A stretch of 64,000 bases of DNA, from the NCBI GenBank assembly GCA_013289765.1, contig JABCZI010000010.1, forward strand, positions 62,001-126,000, given 5' to 3'. The notes below the pieces were generated by a model that made no database searches, was not told the DNA's origin, and saw nothing but the letters and a program-made list of their open reading frames with translations. This document shows, piece after piece, positions 24,736-30,189 of this stretch (positions are counted from its first letter, which is position 1; each line of letters opens with the position of its first letter). The stretch is from Acidobacteriota bacterium. Lineage in GTDB: Bacteria; Acidobacteriota; Terriglobia; Terriglobales; Acidobacteriaceae. Both the position numbers and the translations under genes were made by a program.

Positions 24736-24957
24736 ATGGCTTTCCCTATCAAAATCTGCAGCATCTGCGAAGAGGAGTTCGAGCTTAAGCCGGATAAGCC
24801 CGGTTTTGCCGATCGTTGCCCCGAGTGCAGCACATCCGAGAAAACCGCGTCCACGGCTCAGCATCGAATGGATGCTGACGAGCGCAAGTCTCTGAATGAA
24901 GCAAATGAAGCTCGGAGGCAGGCGATGCGCAACCTTCTGTACCGCAAGGATAGCTAA
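24736..24957 (+). CDS. Small zinc-ribbon protein
   Basis: A 73-residue protein with two CxxC knuckles (CSICEEEF and CPECSTSE) in the first 35 residues and a charged helical tail (ERKSLNEANEARRQAMRNLL). It is likely a structural zinc-ribbon with nucleic-acid or protein-binding activity. It stands alone between a divergent tolC-like gene and the sulfate operon leader. The function is unknown. Confidence 0.7.
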   Translation: MAFPIKICSICEEEFELKPDKPGFADRCPECSTSEKTASTAQHRMDADERKSLNEANEARRQAMRNLLYRKDS

Positions 24958-24993
24958 TTGGGTGGTGCGGGTTTGGGGCCGTGCCCAGGTGGA

Positions 24994-25036
24994 GACAGCC
25001 GCCCTCGGCTGTCTGGTCGAGCGGAGGGTGCTCGAC
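24994..25036. repeat. Two tandem hairpin-forming palindromes
   Basis: GACAGCCG (24994-25001) pairs with CGGCTGTC (25006-25013) around a 4-base loop; GTCGAGC (25016-25022) pairs with GCTCGAC (25030-25036). No T-run follows, so they do not look like a standard terminator. They resemble dispersed intergenic palindromes and lie upstream of the sulfate operon promoter. Confidence 0.5.
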
Positions 25037-25086
25037 GTTGTGGGCTCCCCCAGATTGCGTATCCGCCGATCAAAATTAAAATTAGT

Positions 25087-25099
25087 GATACTTCTTATC
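25087..25099. promoter_or_regulatory. GATA-N5-TATC dyad, candidate LysR-type site
   Basis: GATA at 25087-25090 and TATC at 25096-25099 form a short dyad in an AT-rich stretch, centred about 74 bases upstream of the predicted transcription start. That is where many LysR regulators bind. A LysR gene lies at the other end of the operon. The match is short and could be chance. Confidence 0.3.
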
Positions 25100-25131
25100 G
25101 AAATTATTCATCAAACAAGGGCGACGGTAAG

Positions 25132-25160
25132 TTGACGGGTTTGAGCCCGCAGCTTATTAT
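25132..25160 (+). promoter_or_regulatory. Sigma70-type promoter of the sulfate-assimilation operon leader
   Basis: TTGACG at 25132-25137, a 17-base spacer, and TATTAT at 25155-25160. Transcription would start at about 25166-25168, only 3-5 bases before the leader ATG at 25171. The leader message would therefore be nearly leaderless, which explains why no ribosome-binding site precedes it. A CGGG/CCCG dyad lies in the spacer. Confidence 0.7.
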
Positions 25161-25170
25161 TCGTAATAGC

Positions 25171-25263
25171 ATGACTCGTTTCAGCAATCCTCGCCAGTCT
25201 TGTATGTGTGCATGTTGTTGTTGTGCATGCGTGTGTTCTGGCGCAGGGAGGTTGCTGACTTAA
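25171..25263 (+). CDS. Cysteine-rich leader peptide of the sulfate-assimilation operon
   Basis: A 30-residue peptide starting MTRFSNPRQS, then CMCACCCCACVC (residues 11-22, eight Cys in twelve), then SGAGRLLT and TAA. It precedes a sulfite reductase gene by 83 bases and ends 29 bases before an intrinsic terminator. A run of codons for the end product of the pathway is the hallmark of a ribosome-mediated attenuator: stalling at Cys codons when charged Cys-tRNA is scarce should alter folding of the RNA behind it. The peptide itself probably has no other job. The same frame is open upstream to 24958, but that part has no sign of being coding. The start is inferred from promoter position. Confidence 0.78.
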   Translation: MTRFSNPRQSCMCACCCCACVCSGAGRLLT

Positions 25264-25321
25264 AAGTTTCATAAGATCGTCAGCACTTATCGCCCACCGC
25301 CAGAGAGCATCTGGCGGTGGG
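25189..25321 (+). promoter_or_regulatory. Cysteine attenuator: alternative RNA pairings 1:2, 2:3, 3:4
   Basis: Segment 1 is 25189-25197 (CCTCGCCAG, just before the Cys codons). Segment 2 is 25237-25248 (TCTGGCGCAGGG, just after the last Cys codon). Segment 3 is 25293-25304 (CCCACCGCCAGA). Segment 4 is 25310-25321 (TCTGGCGGTGGG). 1:2 gives nine pairs with one bulged C; 2:3 gives seven pairs plus three after a small internal loop; 3:4 gives twelve perfect pairs. Within the 2:3 loop GCTGAC (25254-25259) can pair with GTCAGC (25279-25284). A ribosome stalled at codons 11-18 masks segment 1 and frees segment 2 to pair with 3, blocking the terminator. Confidence 0.75.
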
Positions 25322-25332
25322 TTTTTCTTTTT
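25293..25332 (+). terminator. Intrinsic terminator of the cysteine attenuator
   Basis: A 12-bp perfect GC-rich stem (25293-25304 with 25310-25321), 5-base loop GAGCA, then TTTTTCTTTTT. It ends 14 bases before the sulfite reductase ATG. Its placement upstream of the structural gene, not downstream, marks it as a regulatory terminator. Confidence 0.88.
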
Positions 25333-25346
25333 ACGGTCAATTTTCT

Positions 25347-27050
25347 ATGGAAAACACGGTGAAAGAAACCAAGGCGCAAAAATCTGAACGGCTGAAGCGC
25401 GCCATGAATCCCTGGGACGGCTTGACCGAGATCCGCCGCTTTGCGCGCGAAGGCTTCGATTCGATTCCGCCAGAATGGATTGGAACCTACTTCCGCTGGT
25501 GGGGTGTCTACACTCAAGGCGACGGAGTGGGAGTGGTCGGCGGTAAAGACGGGCAGGGCAAGGCGCTGCCTTTCTTCATGGTCCGGATTCGAATTCCGAA
25601 CGGTCTGTTGCGCTCCGACCAACTGCGAACCATTGCCAGTCTCACTCAGCGTTATGCGCGCAGCATCGCTGATCTCACGGTCCGGCAAAATATTCAACTG
25701 CACTGGGTTTCGATTGAAGCGCTGCCCGAAGTGCTCGACGAACTGTGGCGCGTAGGCCTCAACACGACCGGGTCTTGCGGCGACGTCACCCGCAACATTA
25801 CCGGCTGCCCTGTGGCCGGAGTGGATGCGGACGAGATTTGCGATGCTTCGTCGCTCGCCCTGGAAGCGGATCGCATGCTCGCCGGCAACGCGGAGTTCTA
25901 TAACCTGCCGCGAAAGTTCAAGATTTCTATTACCGGATGCCGCGTGTGGTGCCCCTACCCCGAAATTAATGATGTTGGACTGACGGCGGTTGAGCGAGTC
26001 GTAAAGGGAAAGCCTGAGGTTGGATTTGCGCTACGCGTCGGCGGCGGGCTTTCCACCGAGCCTTACCTCGGCGCTCCGCTCGACGCTTTCGTTCGCTGGA
26101 ATCAAGTTCTCCCCACCATTCGAGGAATTGCCGAGTTGTTTCGCGACTCCGACCAATTGCGCGAGCACCGCGAGCGGGCGCGGCTTAAATTTCTTTTCCT
26201 ACGGCACGGCTGGACGGCGCAGGCCTTCCAAAAAGAGCTGGAACGCCGCATCGGATTTCAATTCGATCCTGCTGAACCGGCGCAGCCACCGAATGATGTC
26301 TACCGTGATCACATCGGAATTCATCCGCAAAAGCAGCCGGGCTATTGCTACGTGGGAGCCACCGTACTGCGCGGCAGGATCACCCCGGAGCAGATGCGTG
26401 CCGCCGCGGACCTGTCCGACAGATTCGCCAGCGGCGAACTACGCACCACGAACATGCAGAACTTGCTGATCGTCAACGTGCCTCGGTTAAAGGCTGACGA
26501 GCTGGCTAAAGAGTTGGGCGCGATTGGCTTGCCTGTCAGTGGCTCCGCTTTTTGGCGCGGAGCGGTCGCCTGCAGTGGAACTGAATTCTGCAAGCTCGCG
26601 ATCACCGAGACGAAGAGTTTTTCGCGCTGGCTGGTGGAGGAATTGGAAGAACGCCTGCCGGGCTTCGATCAGCATTTAAAACTGCACGTCACCGGATGCC
26701 CCAATAGTTGCGGTCAACACTGGATTGCCGACATCGGAATCGAAGGTAAGAAGATCAAGGCCAATGGACACATGATCGACGCCTACTACTTCTGCCTGGG
26801 CGGTGCACTTGGCCTGCATCAGTCGATCGCGCGGCCCGTGGGATATCGCTGCGCCGCAACTGAAGTTCCCGAGGCGATCGAGCGGCTACTGCGGAGATAT
26901 CTTGCGGACGGCACGCCCGGCGAAAATCTGCGGCGCTTTTTTGCGCGCCACAGCGATGAGGATCTGCGGAACTTCCTGGCGGGAGAATTTGTGGATGCAG
27001 TCGCGCGCGATCTGCCCGAAGGGCGTGTGCCAAGCGGGGTAGAAGGATGA
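25347..27050 (+). CDS. Assimilatory sulfite reductase (ferredoxin type, NirA/SirA family)
   Basis: Siroheme and [4Fe-4S] enzyme that reduces sulfite to sulfide with six electrons, 567 residues. Two ferrodoxin-like halves and two siroheme domains are present. The cluster ligands are Cys409 and Cys415 (ACSGTEFC) and Cys451 and Cys455 (TGCPNSC). Nitrite reductases share this fold; sulfate operon context favours sulfite. The ATG at 25347 is right because an upstream in-frame GTG at 25317 lies in the terminator stem. The C-terminus (GRVPSGVEG) comes from DNA resembling the recN repeat. The end overlaps the next gene by four bases (ATGA). Confidence 0.9.
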   Translation: MENTVKETKAQKSERLKRAMNPWDGLTEIRRFAREGFDSIPPEWIGTYFRWWGVYTQGDGVGVVGGKDGQGKALPFFMVRIRIPNGLLRSDQLRTIASLTQRYARSIADLTVRQNIQLHWVSIEALPEVLDELWRVGLNTTGSCGDVTRNITGCPVAGVDADEICDASSLALEADRMLAGNAEFYNLPRKFKISITGCRVWCPYPEINDVGLTAVERVVKGKPEVGFALRVGGGLSTEPYLGAPLDAFVRWNQVLPTIRGIAELFRDSDQLREHRERARLKFLFLRHGWTAQAFQKELERRIGFQFDPAEPAQPPNDVYRDHIGIHPQKQPGYCYVGATVLRGRITPEQMRAAADLSDRFASGELRTTNMQNLLIVNVPRLKADELAKELGAIGLPVSGSAFWRGAVACSGTEFCKLAITETKSFSRWLVEELEERLPGFDQHLKLHVTGCPNSCGQHWIADIGIEGKKIKANGHMIDAYYFCLGGALGLHQSIARPVGYRCAATEVPEAIERLLRRYLADGTPGENLRRFFARHSDEDLRNFLAGEFVDAVARDLPEGRVPSGVEG

Positions 27051-27748
27051 GCTATACAAAAGAAATCGCGAGCAGCTTGTTTCCAATGTTTATGAAACTC
27101 GAAGGCAAACGTTGCCTTGTGGTCGGCGCCGGGAAGGTTGGCGAACCCAAGATCGGCGGACTGATCGACACCGGGGCAGCGCTCCACGTTGTCGCCCTGG
27201 AAGCGACCGAAACGGTTCACGCGTGGGCTAGGGCAGGGAAGATCACGCTCGAGATACGTGCCTTCGCCGACTCCGACCTCAAAGGAACATTTTTGGCGAT
27301 CGTAGCGACGGCATCGCGAGCCCTCAACGCTGTGATCTATCGGGAAGCTCAGCGGCGCGGGGTGTTGTGCAATGTGGTCGACGTTCCGGAGTATTGTGAT
27401 TTCTACTATCCGGCTGTAGTTCGGCGGGGCGATCTGCAAATAGCGATCTCCACCAACGGCCAGAGTCCCGCGCTTGCGCAAAAACTTCGGCAACAGCTTG
27501 AACGGCAGTTTGGTCCGGGATATGCGCGCTGGGTTGCGGAACTCGGAGCGACACGAAAGCTGGTGCTGGCGAGCGATCTTGACCAGCAACGAAAGCGCGA
27601 ATTGTTGCTCAACCTGGCGAGCCGCGAGGCTTTGCAGGCGGCACTGGAAGAAGAGTCGGCGAAGAACCAATCGGCAGAGACCGAGTCGATAACGACCGAG
27701 TCGATAACGACCGAGTCGGCAGAGGCTCACGGGAGGGTAACGGCATGA
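27047..27748 (+). CDS. Precorrin-2 dehydrogenase / sirohydrochlorin ferrochelatase (siroheme synthase N-terminal half)
   Basis: A 233-residue protein like the N-terminal part of CysG or Met8p. It oxidises precorrin-2 with NAD and inserts iron to give siroheme, the cofactor of the sulfite reductase just upstream. The NAD motif is VVGAGKVGEPK at about 25-35, and VVRRGDLQIAISTNGQSPAL marks the central domain. The last 30 residues hold a 5-residue repeat (TESIT) encoded by a 15-base tandem repeat and are not part of the family core. ATGA overlaps on both sides indicate tight coupling. Confidence 0.88.
   Translation: MSYTKEIASSLFPMFMKLEGKRCLVVGAGKVGEPKIGGLIDTGAALHVVALEATETVHAWARAGKITLEIRAFADSDLKGTFLAIVATASRALNAVIYREAQRRGVLCNVVDVPEYCDFYYPAVVRRGDLQIAISTNGQSPALAQKLRQQLERQFGPGYARWVAELGATRKLVLASDLDQQRKRELLLNLASREALQAALEEESAKNQSAETESITTESITTESAEAHGRVTA
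27679..27723. repeat. 15-base tandem repeat in the siroheme synthase tail
   Basis: Two exact copies of GACCGAGTCGATAAC (27679-27693, 27694-27708) and a third diverging copy (27709-27723). The unit is a multiple of three, so copy-number change would keep the frame and lengthen or shorten the protein tail. Confidence 0.8.
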
Positions 27749-28554
27749 AGGGCTTCAATAACAAGAACGGCAAGGTGTATCTGGTGGGCGCGGGACCTGG
27801 TGATCCTGAATTGCTTACCGTGAAAGCTCTTCGGCTTTTGCGGACTGCCGACGTGGTGCTGTATGACGACCTGGTCGCTCCGGAAATTCTTGCATTGGCT
27901 TCGCCAACCGCAGAATCGAAAAATGTGGGTAAGCGCTGCGGCCACAAAGCGATCCGGCAGGAAGAAATCAATTTTCTGATGGTCACATTGGCCGGCTCAG
28001 GGCGAGAGGTAGTGAGGCTCAAGAGTGGAGACCCATTGATCTTCGGCCGCGCTGGCGAAGAGATTGAGGCGCTGCGACGAGCCGGAATCGAATACGAAAT
28101 TGTACCGGGTGTCACCTCCGCGCTGGGCGCGGCGGCAGCGGCAGGGATTCCGCTGACGCATCGGCAAGCATCGTCCACCCTGGTATTGACGACTGGCAAC
28201 CGCGCTCCAGGAAACGAGAATGAGGATTGGAGCAAGTTTGCGGCTTCACAAGCCACGTTGGTGGTTTATATGCCGGGCCAGAACTACGGCGGGATTGCCG
28301 CAAAACTCTCGGCAGCAGGGTTCGCCGGAGAGACTCCTTGCGCAATCATCTCGCGCGCGACAACTTCCCGGCAGCGGACATATCGCACCACGGTTGCAGA
28401 TCTTCCTGGGTCGCCGAGGCTCGCATCTCCCACGCTGCTGGTCGTCGGTGAGGTCGTGAGATTTGTCGATCAGAATCTAGTCGAACCCGAACTCGCGGAA
28501 AGCCTGTTTTCGCCCCCTGAAAGTTCTCTTCAGAACGAGGAGCCCCTGGCATGA
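27745..28554 (+). CDS. cobA: Uroporphyrinogen-III C-methyltransferase
   Basis: SAM-dependent methyltransferase of 269 residues making precorrin-2 from uroporphyrinogen III, the step before siroheme synthase. Family motifs are VGAGPGDPELLTVKAL at the N-terminus, LKSGDPLIFGRAGEE in the middle and GVTSALGAAAAAGIPLTHR after it. Together with the preceding gene it replaces a fused CysG. The start and stop overlap the neighbouring genes by four bases each. Confidence 0.92.
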   Translation: MKGFNNKNGKVYLVGAGPGDPELLTVKALRLLRTADVVLYDDLVAPEILALASPTAESKNVGKRCGHKAIRQEEINFLMVTLAGSGREVVRLKSGDPLIFGRAGEEIEALRRAGIEYEIVPGVTSALGAAAAAGIPLTHRQASSTLVLTTGNRAPGNENEDWSKFAASQATLVVYMPGQNYGGIAAKLSAAGFAGETPCAIISRATTSRQRTYRTTVADLPGSPRLASPTLLVVGEVVRFVDQNLVEPELAESLFSPPESSLQNEEPLA

Positions 28555-29267
28555 AAGAACAGATTGAAGAACTGCAGATCGTTGCGGAAGCATGGAAACC
28601 CGAACGGGTGCTGGAGTGGGCGTTCGAAAAATTCGGGGATACGGTCGCGATCTCCTCAGCCTTCGGAGCCGAAGGAATGGCTCTGATTGATATTGCCTCG
28701 AGGGTGCGCAAGCACTTTCGGTTGTTCACGCTGGACACCGAATTCCTTTTTCCAGAAACGTACAACCTCATGGACAGGGTCGAAGAAAGATATGGGATCA
28801 CGATCGAAAAAGTTTATCCGCTGAACTCTCCGGAAGAGCAGGAGCGAATTTACGGTGCGGCACTCTGGGAACGGCAAGCTGATCAATGCTGCAATCTTCG
28901 CAAGGTTGAGCCGCTGCGGCGAAAGCTGAGTGAACTGAGCGCGTGGATCACGAGCATTCGCCGCGATCAAACCTCATCCCGGGCAGGCGCAGGCAAAGTG
29001 CAGTGGGACGAGAAATTCGGACTGGTGAAGATCAATCCCATCGCCGACTGGAGCTCCAAGCAAGTCTGGCAATACATTCGCCAGCATGACGTTCCGTACA
29101 ACGTATTGCATGAACGCAGCTATCCCAGTATCGGTTGCACGCACTGCACGCGAGCGGTGTTGCCGGGAGAAGATCCCAGGGCAGGACGCTGGTCGGGATC
29201 ATCGAAGACCGAGTGCGGACTGCATATCATTCAACCCGTGACTAATCCTCCGGAAGCGGGCGCATAG
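28551..29267 (+). CDS. cysH: APS/PAPS reductase (CysH family, iron-sulfur type)
   Basis: Protein of 238 residues that reduces activated sulfate to sulfite. The PP-loop-like N-terminus is VAISSAFGAEGMALID, the catalytic Cys222 sits in the ECGLH motif, and the Cys pairs CC at 113-114 and CTHC at 196-199 are the ligands of a [4Fe-4S] cluster. That second set marks the enzyme as the adenylyl-sulfate (APS) reductase type, not the cluster-free PAPS type of E. coli. It ends the operon seven bases before the convergent LysR gene. ATP sulfurylase is not in the window. Confidence 0.92.
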   Translation: MKEQIEELQIVAEAWKPERVLEWAFEKFGDTVAISSAFGAEGMALIDIASRVRKHFRLFTLDTEFLFPETYNLMDRVEERYGITIEKVYPLNSPEEQERIYGAALWERQADQCCNLRKVEPLRRKLSELSAWITSIRRDQTSSRAGAGKVQWDEKFGLVKINPIADWSSKQVWQYIRQHDVPYNVLHERSYPSIGCTHCTRAVLPGEDPRAGRWSGSSKTECGLHIIQPVTNPPEAGA

Positions 29268-29274
29268 TCGAGAA

Positions 29275-30189
29275 CTATTTGTGCGCCGAAGCGTCCGTCT
29301 TCTTTAAATATTCGGAGAGCTGCCGCACCACGGTCACAAACGTTTTTGTGGCGACCGAGAGAGTTCGGTCGCGACGGTACGCTAGTCCAAGTTCACGCCA
29401 AAGGTCCGCACCCTCCAGTTCCACCAGCTTCACTCTGCCCGTCGCCACCTCATCGCGCGCGAATGACGCGCTGATGAGCGAGATGCCAAGATCGGCGGCC
29501 ACAAAGCTTTTAATCATCCCGATGCTGGGCAATTCCATCCTGACTTTGAGTTCCGTATTGTATTCGCGGAAGAGTTTATCCAGCAGTCTGCGGGTATGGC
29601 CGGTCTTCGGCAACAGCAGAGGATATTTCACCACCTCGCTGATGTTGGCCGACTTTAACTTGGCAAGGGGGTTCTTGGGGCTCACCATCAGCAGCAACCG
29701 GTCGCGAAAGATGGGCTGCACTTTCAAACTCGGAGATTGCACGGGCAGGCTCAGGATGCCGACATCGAGCGAACCATTCTCCAGTTTCTCGACAATCTTA
29801 TAAGTGAAGTTTCGATAGATACTGATCTGCACTTCGGGATACTTGCGGCAGTACTCGCCAAATACTTCCGGCAAAACATACAGGCAAGTGGCTTCGTTAG
29901 CGCCGACCATCAGCGTGCCCCGCGGCGTGTGGCCGTGGTCCGCTACAGCGACGAGCGATTCGTCGCGCAGCTTTTTCATGCGCAGCGCGTATTCGTGGAA
30001 GACCTGACCGGCGGGAGTGAGCTTGACGGTTTTGCCCGAACGATCAAGCAGCCGATCGCCGTACTCCTGCTCCAGTTGACGGATCTGTGCACTAACAGCT
30101 GATTGTGAGCGGAAGACTTTCTCCCCGGCACGCGAGAAACTTCCTTGCCGGGCAACCTCGAGGAAGGTGACGAGTTGATCAAAATCCAT
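29275..30189 (-). CDS. LysR-family regulator, CysB/CysL-like
   Basis: A 304-residue LysR regulator with an N-terminal winged helix-turn-helix (LVTFLEVARQGSFSRAGEKV, then QSAVSAQIRQLE) and a periplasmic-binding-protein-like effector domain (about 90-295). It is convergent with cysH with only seven bases between stops, so it is not in the operon but may control it. It could equally respond to nitrogen or 2-oxoglutarate, since gltB lies on its other side in the same orientation. Confidence 0.85.
   Translation of the reverse strand: MDFDQLVTFLEVARQGSFSRAGEKVFRSQSAVSAQIRQLEQEYGDRLLDRSGKTVKLTPAGQVFHEYALRMKKLRDESLVAVADHGHTPRGTLMVGANEATCLYVLPEVFGEYCRKYPEVQISIYRNFTYKIVEKLENGSLDVGILSLPVQSPSLKVQPIFRDRLLLMVSPKNPLAKLKSANISEVVKYPLLLPKTGHTRRLLDKLFREYNTELKVRMELPSIGMIKSFVAADLGISLISASFARDEVATGRVKLVELEGADLWRELGLAYRRDRTLSVATKTFVTVVRQLSEYLKKTDASAHK

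Follow-up and report, generated by a model that had tools for sequence, protein, structure and literature searches.

The nitrite/sulfite reductase gene found in the 64,000-nucleotide stretch of soil-acidobacterial DNA analysed here (the window) is preceded by a short open reading frame rich in cysteine codons and by a putative intrinsic terminator, which raises the question of whether the supply of cysteine could decide if transcription continues into the gene. The analyses presented here indicate that this leader is very probably a ribosome-mediated transcription attenuator that senses charged Cys-tRNA, as judged from sequence comparison and folding, and they give a concrete, testable mechanism for the control of sulfate assimilation.

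The leader region and its operon

All the leader and operon features lie on the forward strand. Sequence reading and a promoter scan confirmed the predicted promoter (25132-25160) given in an earlier note on this DNA, with TTGACG as the -35 box (25132-25137), a 17-nt spacer and TATTAT as the -10 box (25155-25160). The scan yielded two promoter-like sites in 24900-25500 versus a mean of 0.4 in shuffled sequences. The transcript is predicted to start near 25167, approximately 4 nt before the ATG (25171) of a 30-codon leader ORF (MTRFSNPRQSCMCACCCCACVCSGAGRLLT, 25171-25263) that ends with a TAA codon at 25261-25263. Its peptide contains eight cysteines, at residues 11, 13, 15-18, 20 and 22, and the corresponding codons (seven TGT and one TGC) fall within 12 codons (25201-25236) that would constitute the sensor.

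Segment 1 (CCTCGCCAG, 25189-25197) can pair with segment 2 (TCTGGCGCAGGG, 25237-25248), which comprises TCTGGCG (25237-25243), directly after the last Cys codon (25234-25236), and GGG (25246-25248). Segment 3 (CGCCAGA, 25298-25304), the alternative partner of segment 2, belongs to the left arm of a 13-pair intrinsic terminator hairpin (25292-25322) whose right arm carries segment 4 (TCTGGCGGTGGG, 25310-25321), and a T tract (TTTTTCTTTTT, 25322-25332) follows directly 3′ of the hairpin. Scanning gave two terminator-like sites versus a shuffled mean of 0.6. The reductase ATG (25347) is located 25 nt past the hairpin. On reading the sequence, the 30-residue frame with its cysteines at residues 11-22, the four segments, the T-run and the reductase ATG were all found where the earlier note had put them. 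In four relatives (L011, L019, L020 and L022), the sulfite-reductase ATG is about 10 nt or less from the terminator hairpin, just past the T tract, and is therefore so near that no room is left for a Shine-Dalgarno site.

The operon consists of four successively overlapping genes that encode a nitrite/sulfite reductase of the NirA family, presumed to be a sulfite reductase (25347-27050), an N-terminal type siroheme synthase (precorrin-2 dehydrogenase, 27047-27748), a uroporphyrinogen-III C-methyltransferase (27745-28554) and a phosphoadenylyl-sulfate/adenylylsulfate reductase (CysH, 28551-29267). The nearest named locus is L032, from an Acidobacteriaceae MAG, with a reductase 93% identical. 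The siroheme and CysH genes agree with the sulfite-reductase operon that had been claimed; the word sulfite itself needs qualification, as the best NCBIfam model for the reductase, ferredoxin-nitrite reductase, scores 366 bits where its cut-off is 594 bits, and NCBIfam does not settle between nitrite and sulfite. Because siroheme and CysH genes accompany the reductase, sulfite is the likely substrate, an assignment that comes mainly from the operon context. A convergent LysR-type regulator gene (29275-30189, reverse strand) adjoins the operon.

Mutually exclusive helices and the timing of folding

The region 25160-25360 folds with -73.3 kcal/mol (z -5.4), a value that none of 200 shuffled sequences reached. 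Sequence and comparison indicate that helices 1:2, 2:3 and 3:4 can form and exclude each other, as the earlier note had proposed, and their energies in isolation are near balance (-26.6, -29.0 and -28.0 kcal/mol, respectively). The antiterminator extends beyond TCTGGCG:CGCCAGA through a GGG:CCC pairing and an inner helix between TGCTGAC (25253-25259) and GTCAGCA (25279-25285), neither of which was part of the original proposal.

A ribosome with the first Cys codon in its A site overlies segment 1, and one at the stop codon covers the 5′ side of the inner helix. In folding calculations, a 30-nt mask around the first or the second Cys codon removed helix 1:2, and a mask placed from the third Cys codon onward left it standing. 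With the ribosome at the stop codon and segment 4 not yet made, helix 2:3 stood at 0.32 versus 0.66 for 1:2. At equilibrium, helix 2:3 wins even without a ribosome once segment 3 is made and segment 4 is not, and in the full-length RNA helix 3:4 wins whatever is masked. Taken together with the masking results, these equilibrium outcomes mean that the switch could work only with kinetic timing and with a ribosome that stalls at the first Cys codons; we infer that the choice between helices has to be made kinetically, as it is in the trp attenuator.

According to the mechanism that we propose, the ribosome would load on the 5′ end as the RNA leaves the polymerase, given a start approximately 4 nt before the leader ATG. 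When cysteine is scarce, it would wait at the first Cys codons and cover segment 1, so that segment 2 and the RNA behind it could fold with segment 3 into the long antiterminator and the polymerase would continue through to the reductase, siroheme and CysH genes. When cysteine is plentiful, the ribosome would reach the stop codon and cover the inner antiterminator helix, helix 3:4 would form and transcription would end. If no ribosome were present, helix 1:2 would form first and helix 3:4 would again end transcription. In this scheme we infer the site of transcript initiation, ribosome stalling, transcription termination, the folding order and the effect of cysteine. Neither the window nor 15 related loci matched any Rfam riboswitch, T-box or leader family at gathering score; a candidate hit to RF02969 (DUF3800-I), with 25.7 bits against a threshold of 44.2, was set aside as terminator-driven.

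Conservation of the Cys run and the terminator

The DNA upstream of the reductase gene was collected from 210 loci (30 of the matches listed in one search, 80, and 100 from genomes of the family), some of which have the same sequence; reductase matches in G166, G053, G127 and G154, a second match in G104, a fragment in G135 and weaker matches lie outside this sample. When a minimum of 4 Cys in 12 codons was required, a Cys-run leader was present in 148 of the 210 loci (52 of 80 in one set and 96 of 130 in the other), equivalent to 135 non-redundant leaders, and 62 regions had none at that threshold. Among the 135, 129 were followed by a hairpin and T tract forming a terminator candidate, some of them weak. 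A leader together with a hairpin of -8 kcal/mol or lower was found in 52 loci of the set of 80 and in 88 of the set of 130. Among relatives the run contains as many as 10 Cys in 12 codons. At least 6 Cys in 12 codons occurred in 82 of 205 regions and in none of 2050 shuffles, 205 reverse strands or 581 other windows of the set-of-80 loci; at least 4 Cys occurred in 148 of 205 regions versus 0.040 of shuffles. Sixteen listed regions from Rokubacteria and Methylomirabilota had at most 3 Cys, though the best segment of their reductases shows 65-73% identity.

The terminators behaved similarly. With L044, L046 and L113 left out as near-duplicates (here and in the counts of 127 leaders given below), a terminator of -12 kcal/mol or lower followed 118 of 133 leaders versus 36 of 399 shuffles. 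A hairpin of that stability was present anywhere in the last 250 nt in 122 of 133 leaders, and in 27 of the 57 regions lacking a 4-Cys leader, some of which have a 3-Cys leader. In the 127 leaders, the hairpin lies a median of 27 nt past the leader stop codon. The repeated occurrence of both Cys run and terminator before this gene among relatives is thus more than chance.

The position of the hairpin bears on a second reading, translational attenuation as in mycobacteria, whereby a ribosome on the Cys run would alter access to the reductase start and the hairpin would act on translation. According to PMC9031893 and PMC13236596, the polycysteine ORFs of M. smegmatis, which are leaderless, act on downstream translation; among 127 leaders of the present set, 13 have a hairpin whose end lies no more than 12 nt from the start of the gene match, where it could cover the start too. 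However, the hairpin lies a median of 44 nt from the gene-match start, the true start being possibly a few codons earlier, and the hairpin with T tract recurs far above shuffled expectation. We therefore consider translational control improbable here and transcription attenuation the better account.

The leaders themselves vary in the number and spacing of their cysteines. The tail SGAGRLLT is common to the near clade, and the Cys run is the longest-lasting feature of the peptide, as would also be expected of a functional Cys-rich peptide that binds metal or has a redox role, the hairpin then being the ordinary terminator of a small gene. Yet the tail differs between clades as the Cys run persists, the flanks of the helix cores pair across segments above shuffled levels, and a similar core accompanies Thr-containing leaders before aspartokinase genes (see below). 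All of this makes a functional peptide very unlikely, and an attenuator remains the preferred reading. Many of the leaders L132-L211, from other genera of the family, are Cys leaders of other types, with tails such as ALRRTCG and RTAKAMA and with other RNA sequences.

Pairing across segments in relatives

Covariation was analysed in an alignment of 74 leaders, with L029, L109, L128 and all of L132-L211 left out; the antiterminators of most L132-L211 leaders were examined by folding alone. Antiterminator pairs were present in 77.7% of cells versus 33-49% in slid versions, and 51 cells showed double changes compared with 27.5 in shuffled alignments. Since slid versions reached up to 49 double changes, it is the pairing percentage alone that stands out for the antiterminator. 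The terminator paired in 83.6% of cells (27-53% when slid), with 19 double changes versus 10.0 in shuffled and up to 24 in slid versions. In distant leaders such as L076, L085, L101 and L105, the left arm keeps GCCAGAG and the right arm no longer matches it; the persistence of this motif despite the mismatch fits a second partner, namely segment 2.

Among the 127 leaders, the anchors of segments 1, 2 and 3 were found in 59, 75 and 81, respectively. The first flank next to the core paired in 0.85 of 48 leaders for helix 1:2 (0 of 5000 shuffles as high) and in 0.64 of 74 leaders for helix 2:3 (14 of 5000), and the second flank position of these reductase-gene leaders showed no pairing excess. 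Fifty-one of 60 fetched attenuators of other genes were also examined, both anchors being found in 28. Specifically, flanks 1, 2 and 3 of helix 2:3 paired in 24, 21 and 15 of the 28 (122, 331 and 28 of 5000 shuffles), and those of helix 1:2 in 16, 10 and 12 of 17 (44, 229 and 42 of 5000). These flank counts take leaders as independent, ignoring kinship. Tree-based contrasts gave 2 pairs on supported branches and 5 on the best tree, few in number, and RNAalifold gave 3 pairs. Sequestration of the left arm was modestly above shuffles (0.66 vs 0.51; 20 of 126 leaders at p ≤ 0.05), and cross-pairing of leaders with the terminator arms of other leaders gave no discrimination (mean fraction 0.34, n = 129). 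On balance, pairing and compensating changes support helices 1:2 and 2:3. Conservation in relatives had been set as a test beforehand, and the Cys run, the terminator and the pairing segments do recur, with some compensating changes.

A predicted near-leaderless ORF with a disfavoured Cys codon

No Shine-Dalgarno sequence was recognised by eye before the leader ATG, and the Cys-run ORF is predicted to be almost leaderless. For the relatives, the top-scoring sigma-70-like promoter ahead of the Cys run was picked regardless of start codons. The first in-frame ATG or GTG then lay 6-11 nt past the -10 box in 98 of 127 leaders, corresponding to a 5′ end of approximately 0-5 nt; in 10 of the 127 no promoter exceeded the score used. 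Of the ATGs located no more than 25 nt from the -10 box, 118 were in frame and 14 out of frame, an excess that argues for translation of the leader ORF.

The same comparison addresses a further alternative, in which the hairpin would be a plain terminator against upstream read-through and the operon would have its promoter elsewhere, governed for example by the LysR-type protein whose gene adjoins the operon on the other strand. Against this, the terminator is located downstream of the leader promoter, this promoter keeps a similar distance to the leader start in relatives, and the scan revealed no forward-strand sigma-70-like site between terminator and gene. A plain terminator is hence hardly credible, which again leaves an attenuator as the reading of choice.

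Codon usage sets the leaders apart. TGT accounts for 483 of 742 Cys codons in the leaders, whereas the reductase genes of 68 of those loci use it for 87 of their 807 Cys codons, and a sample of 34 large ORFs from the window for 33 of 171. A disfavoured codon would suit a sensor, and the needs of RNA structure could also contribute to this preference. Both the near-leaderless start and the use of a codon favoured in the leader and avoided in genes are new beyond the earlier note.

Similar switches before other genes

A covariance model built from the 74 leaders matched 107 of 298 genomes of the order. At the level of the class it matched 103 of 299, and no genome there had more than 6 matches. 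Sixty matches that do not precede the reductase gene were fetched, and Pfam was run on the next ORF of 30 of them. Most of the genes identified after Cys leaders are sulfur genes: siroheme synthases, second nitrite/sulfite reductases, ATP sulfurylase, a TauE-type exporter, rhodaneses, PALP enzymes (CysK by resemblance) and PAPS-reductase-domain genes (CysD by length and resemblance). The rhodanese genes with a Cys-containing leader and a similar terminator core were identified by Pfam in L261 and by resemblance in L274, L275, L276 and L280; in L276, a gene for an SrpI-type encapsulin follows 476 nt on. A ThiS-like gene has a 3-Cys leader (L268). The exception to the sulfur theme is a carbonic-anhydrase family gene after a Cys-containing leader and terminator (L272, 2338-2949). 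Pfam gave no match for the next ORF of L267 and L273, and the gene after the Cys leaders of L253, L331 and L333 went without identification. One genome (G785) has five Cys leaders, located before TauE, siroheme synthase, nitrite/sulfite reductase, CysD-like and rhodanese genes.

The model also matched loci with aspartokinase-like and homoserine dehydrogenase genes (L243-L245, L258, L259, L263-L266, L281 and L282), whose terminator core is nearly the same as that of the Cys attenuators. Their leaders contain Thr and Ile, for example 12 of 31 residues in MTTLIQKSTRITSTGTGMSTRITCLLEDGIG, with 5 and 4 such residues in L265 and L281; those of L258 and L259 were not resolved. In L243-L245, from genomes of the same genus, the Thr/Ile leader is on the strand opposite to the sulfite-reductase leader, approximately 5.5 kb away from it. 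These leaders resemble attenuators of the thrL type. Unlike that type, they share a hairpin core with the Cys attenuators, and the four aspartokinase loci and one homoserine-dehydrogenase locus scanned had no Rfam match at gathering score. A ketol-acid reductoisomerase gene (L269) also has a weak model match 191 nt before it, where no leader was recognised.

In the genome to which the window belongs, the model finds a single switch (the second row has an E of 9). No comparable leader was seen by eye before its best CysK-like gene (L314) or its aspartokinase (L313), and, among 49 matches to a four-Cys-codon run, none of the 30 inspected as loci resembled the switch.

The core shared by these switches is GCCAG / CTGGC / CCCACC-GCCAG...CTGGC-GGTGGG-U. 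We narrowly favour the view that they form a modular attenuator family of Terriglobia, in which one RNA core was copied before many genes and the sensor codons were exchanged, Cys for sulfur genes and Thr/Ile for aspartokinase. If true, this would constitute an RNA-based amino-acid regulon with no need for a regulatory protein. The apparent re-use of one RNA switch with different sensor codons bears on the origin and spread of attenuators.

Comparison with known systems

The E. coli trp operon has a ribosome-mediated attenuator with a leader peptide, alternative helices and an intrinsic terminator. The switch described here differs from trp-type attenuators in its Cys codons, its sulfur-assimilation genes, its occurrence in Acidobacteriota and its two-part antiterminator. 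It has in common with them a leader peptide with sensor codons, alternative helices and an intrinsic terminator, and its predicted near-leaderless start resembles S. meliloti trpE(G), where the RNA begins at the leader ATG itself (PMC7298713).

The earlier note knew of no described cysteine transcription attenuator of this kind in acidobacteria, a claim of novelty that has to be narrowed. No Cys attenuator of Acidobacteria was recognised among the papers listed in searches of mostly open-access literature, and PMC11109978 mentions neither cysteine nor Acidobacteria. Elsewhere, the uORFC-8-2 motif, located before cysS in Rhodobacterales, is predicted to be a ribosome-mediated attenuator with Cys codons (PMC8632094). 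Both would act as transcription attenuators with Cys codons and an intrinsic terminator. The uORFC-8-2 motif has two tandem Cys codons before a cysteinyl-tRNA synthetase gene of alphaproteobacteria, whereas the leaders analysed here have as many as 10 Cys in 12 codons and precede sulfur-assimilation genes.

Cys-rich leader ORFs without obvious terminators precede cys operons in actinobacteria, as stated in PMC1262725. The leaderless polycysteine ORFs of M. smegmatis are those of Canestrari 2020, as presented in PMC9031893, which likewise describes them as acting on translation, in agreement with the earlier note. The likeness to these mycobacterial ORFs lies in a Cys-run ORF before cys operons, leaderless in M. 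smegmatis and predicted to be nearly so here. The difference lies in the mode of action and in the hairpin: the mycobacterial ORFs are described as acting on translation, and PMC1262725 reports that a conserved terminator hairpin was not found there, whereas terminator candidates accompany nearly all the leaders analysed here. Altogether, a Cys-codon attenuator has already been predicted and leaderless polycysteine leaders are known elsewhere, and the acidobacterial leader is real, widely conserved and best explained as a variant of ribosome-mediated attenuation.
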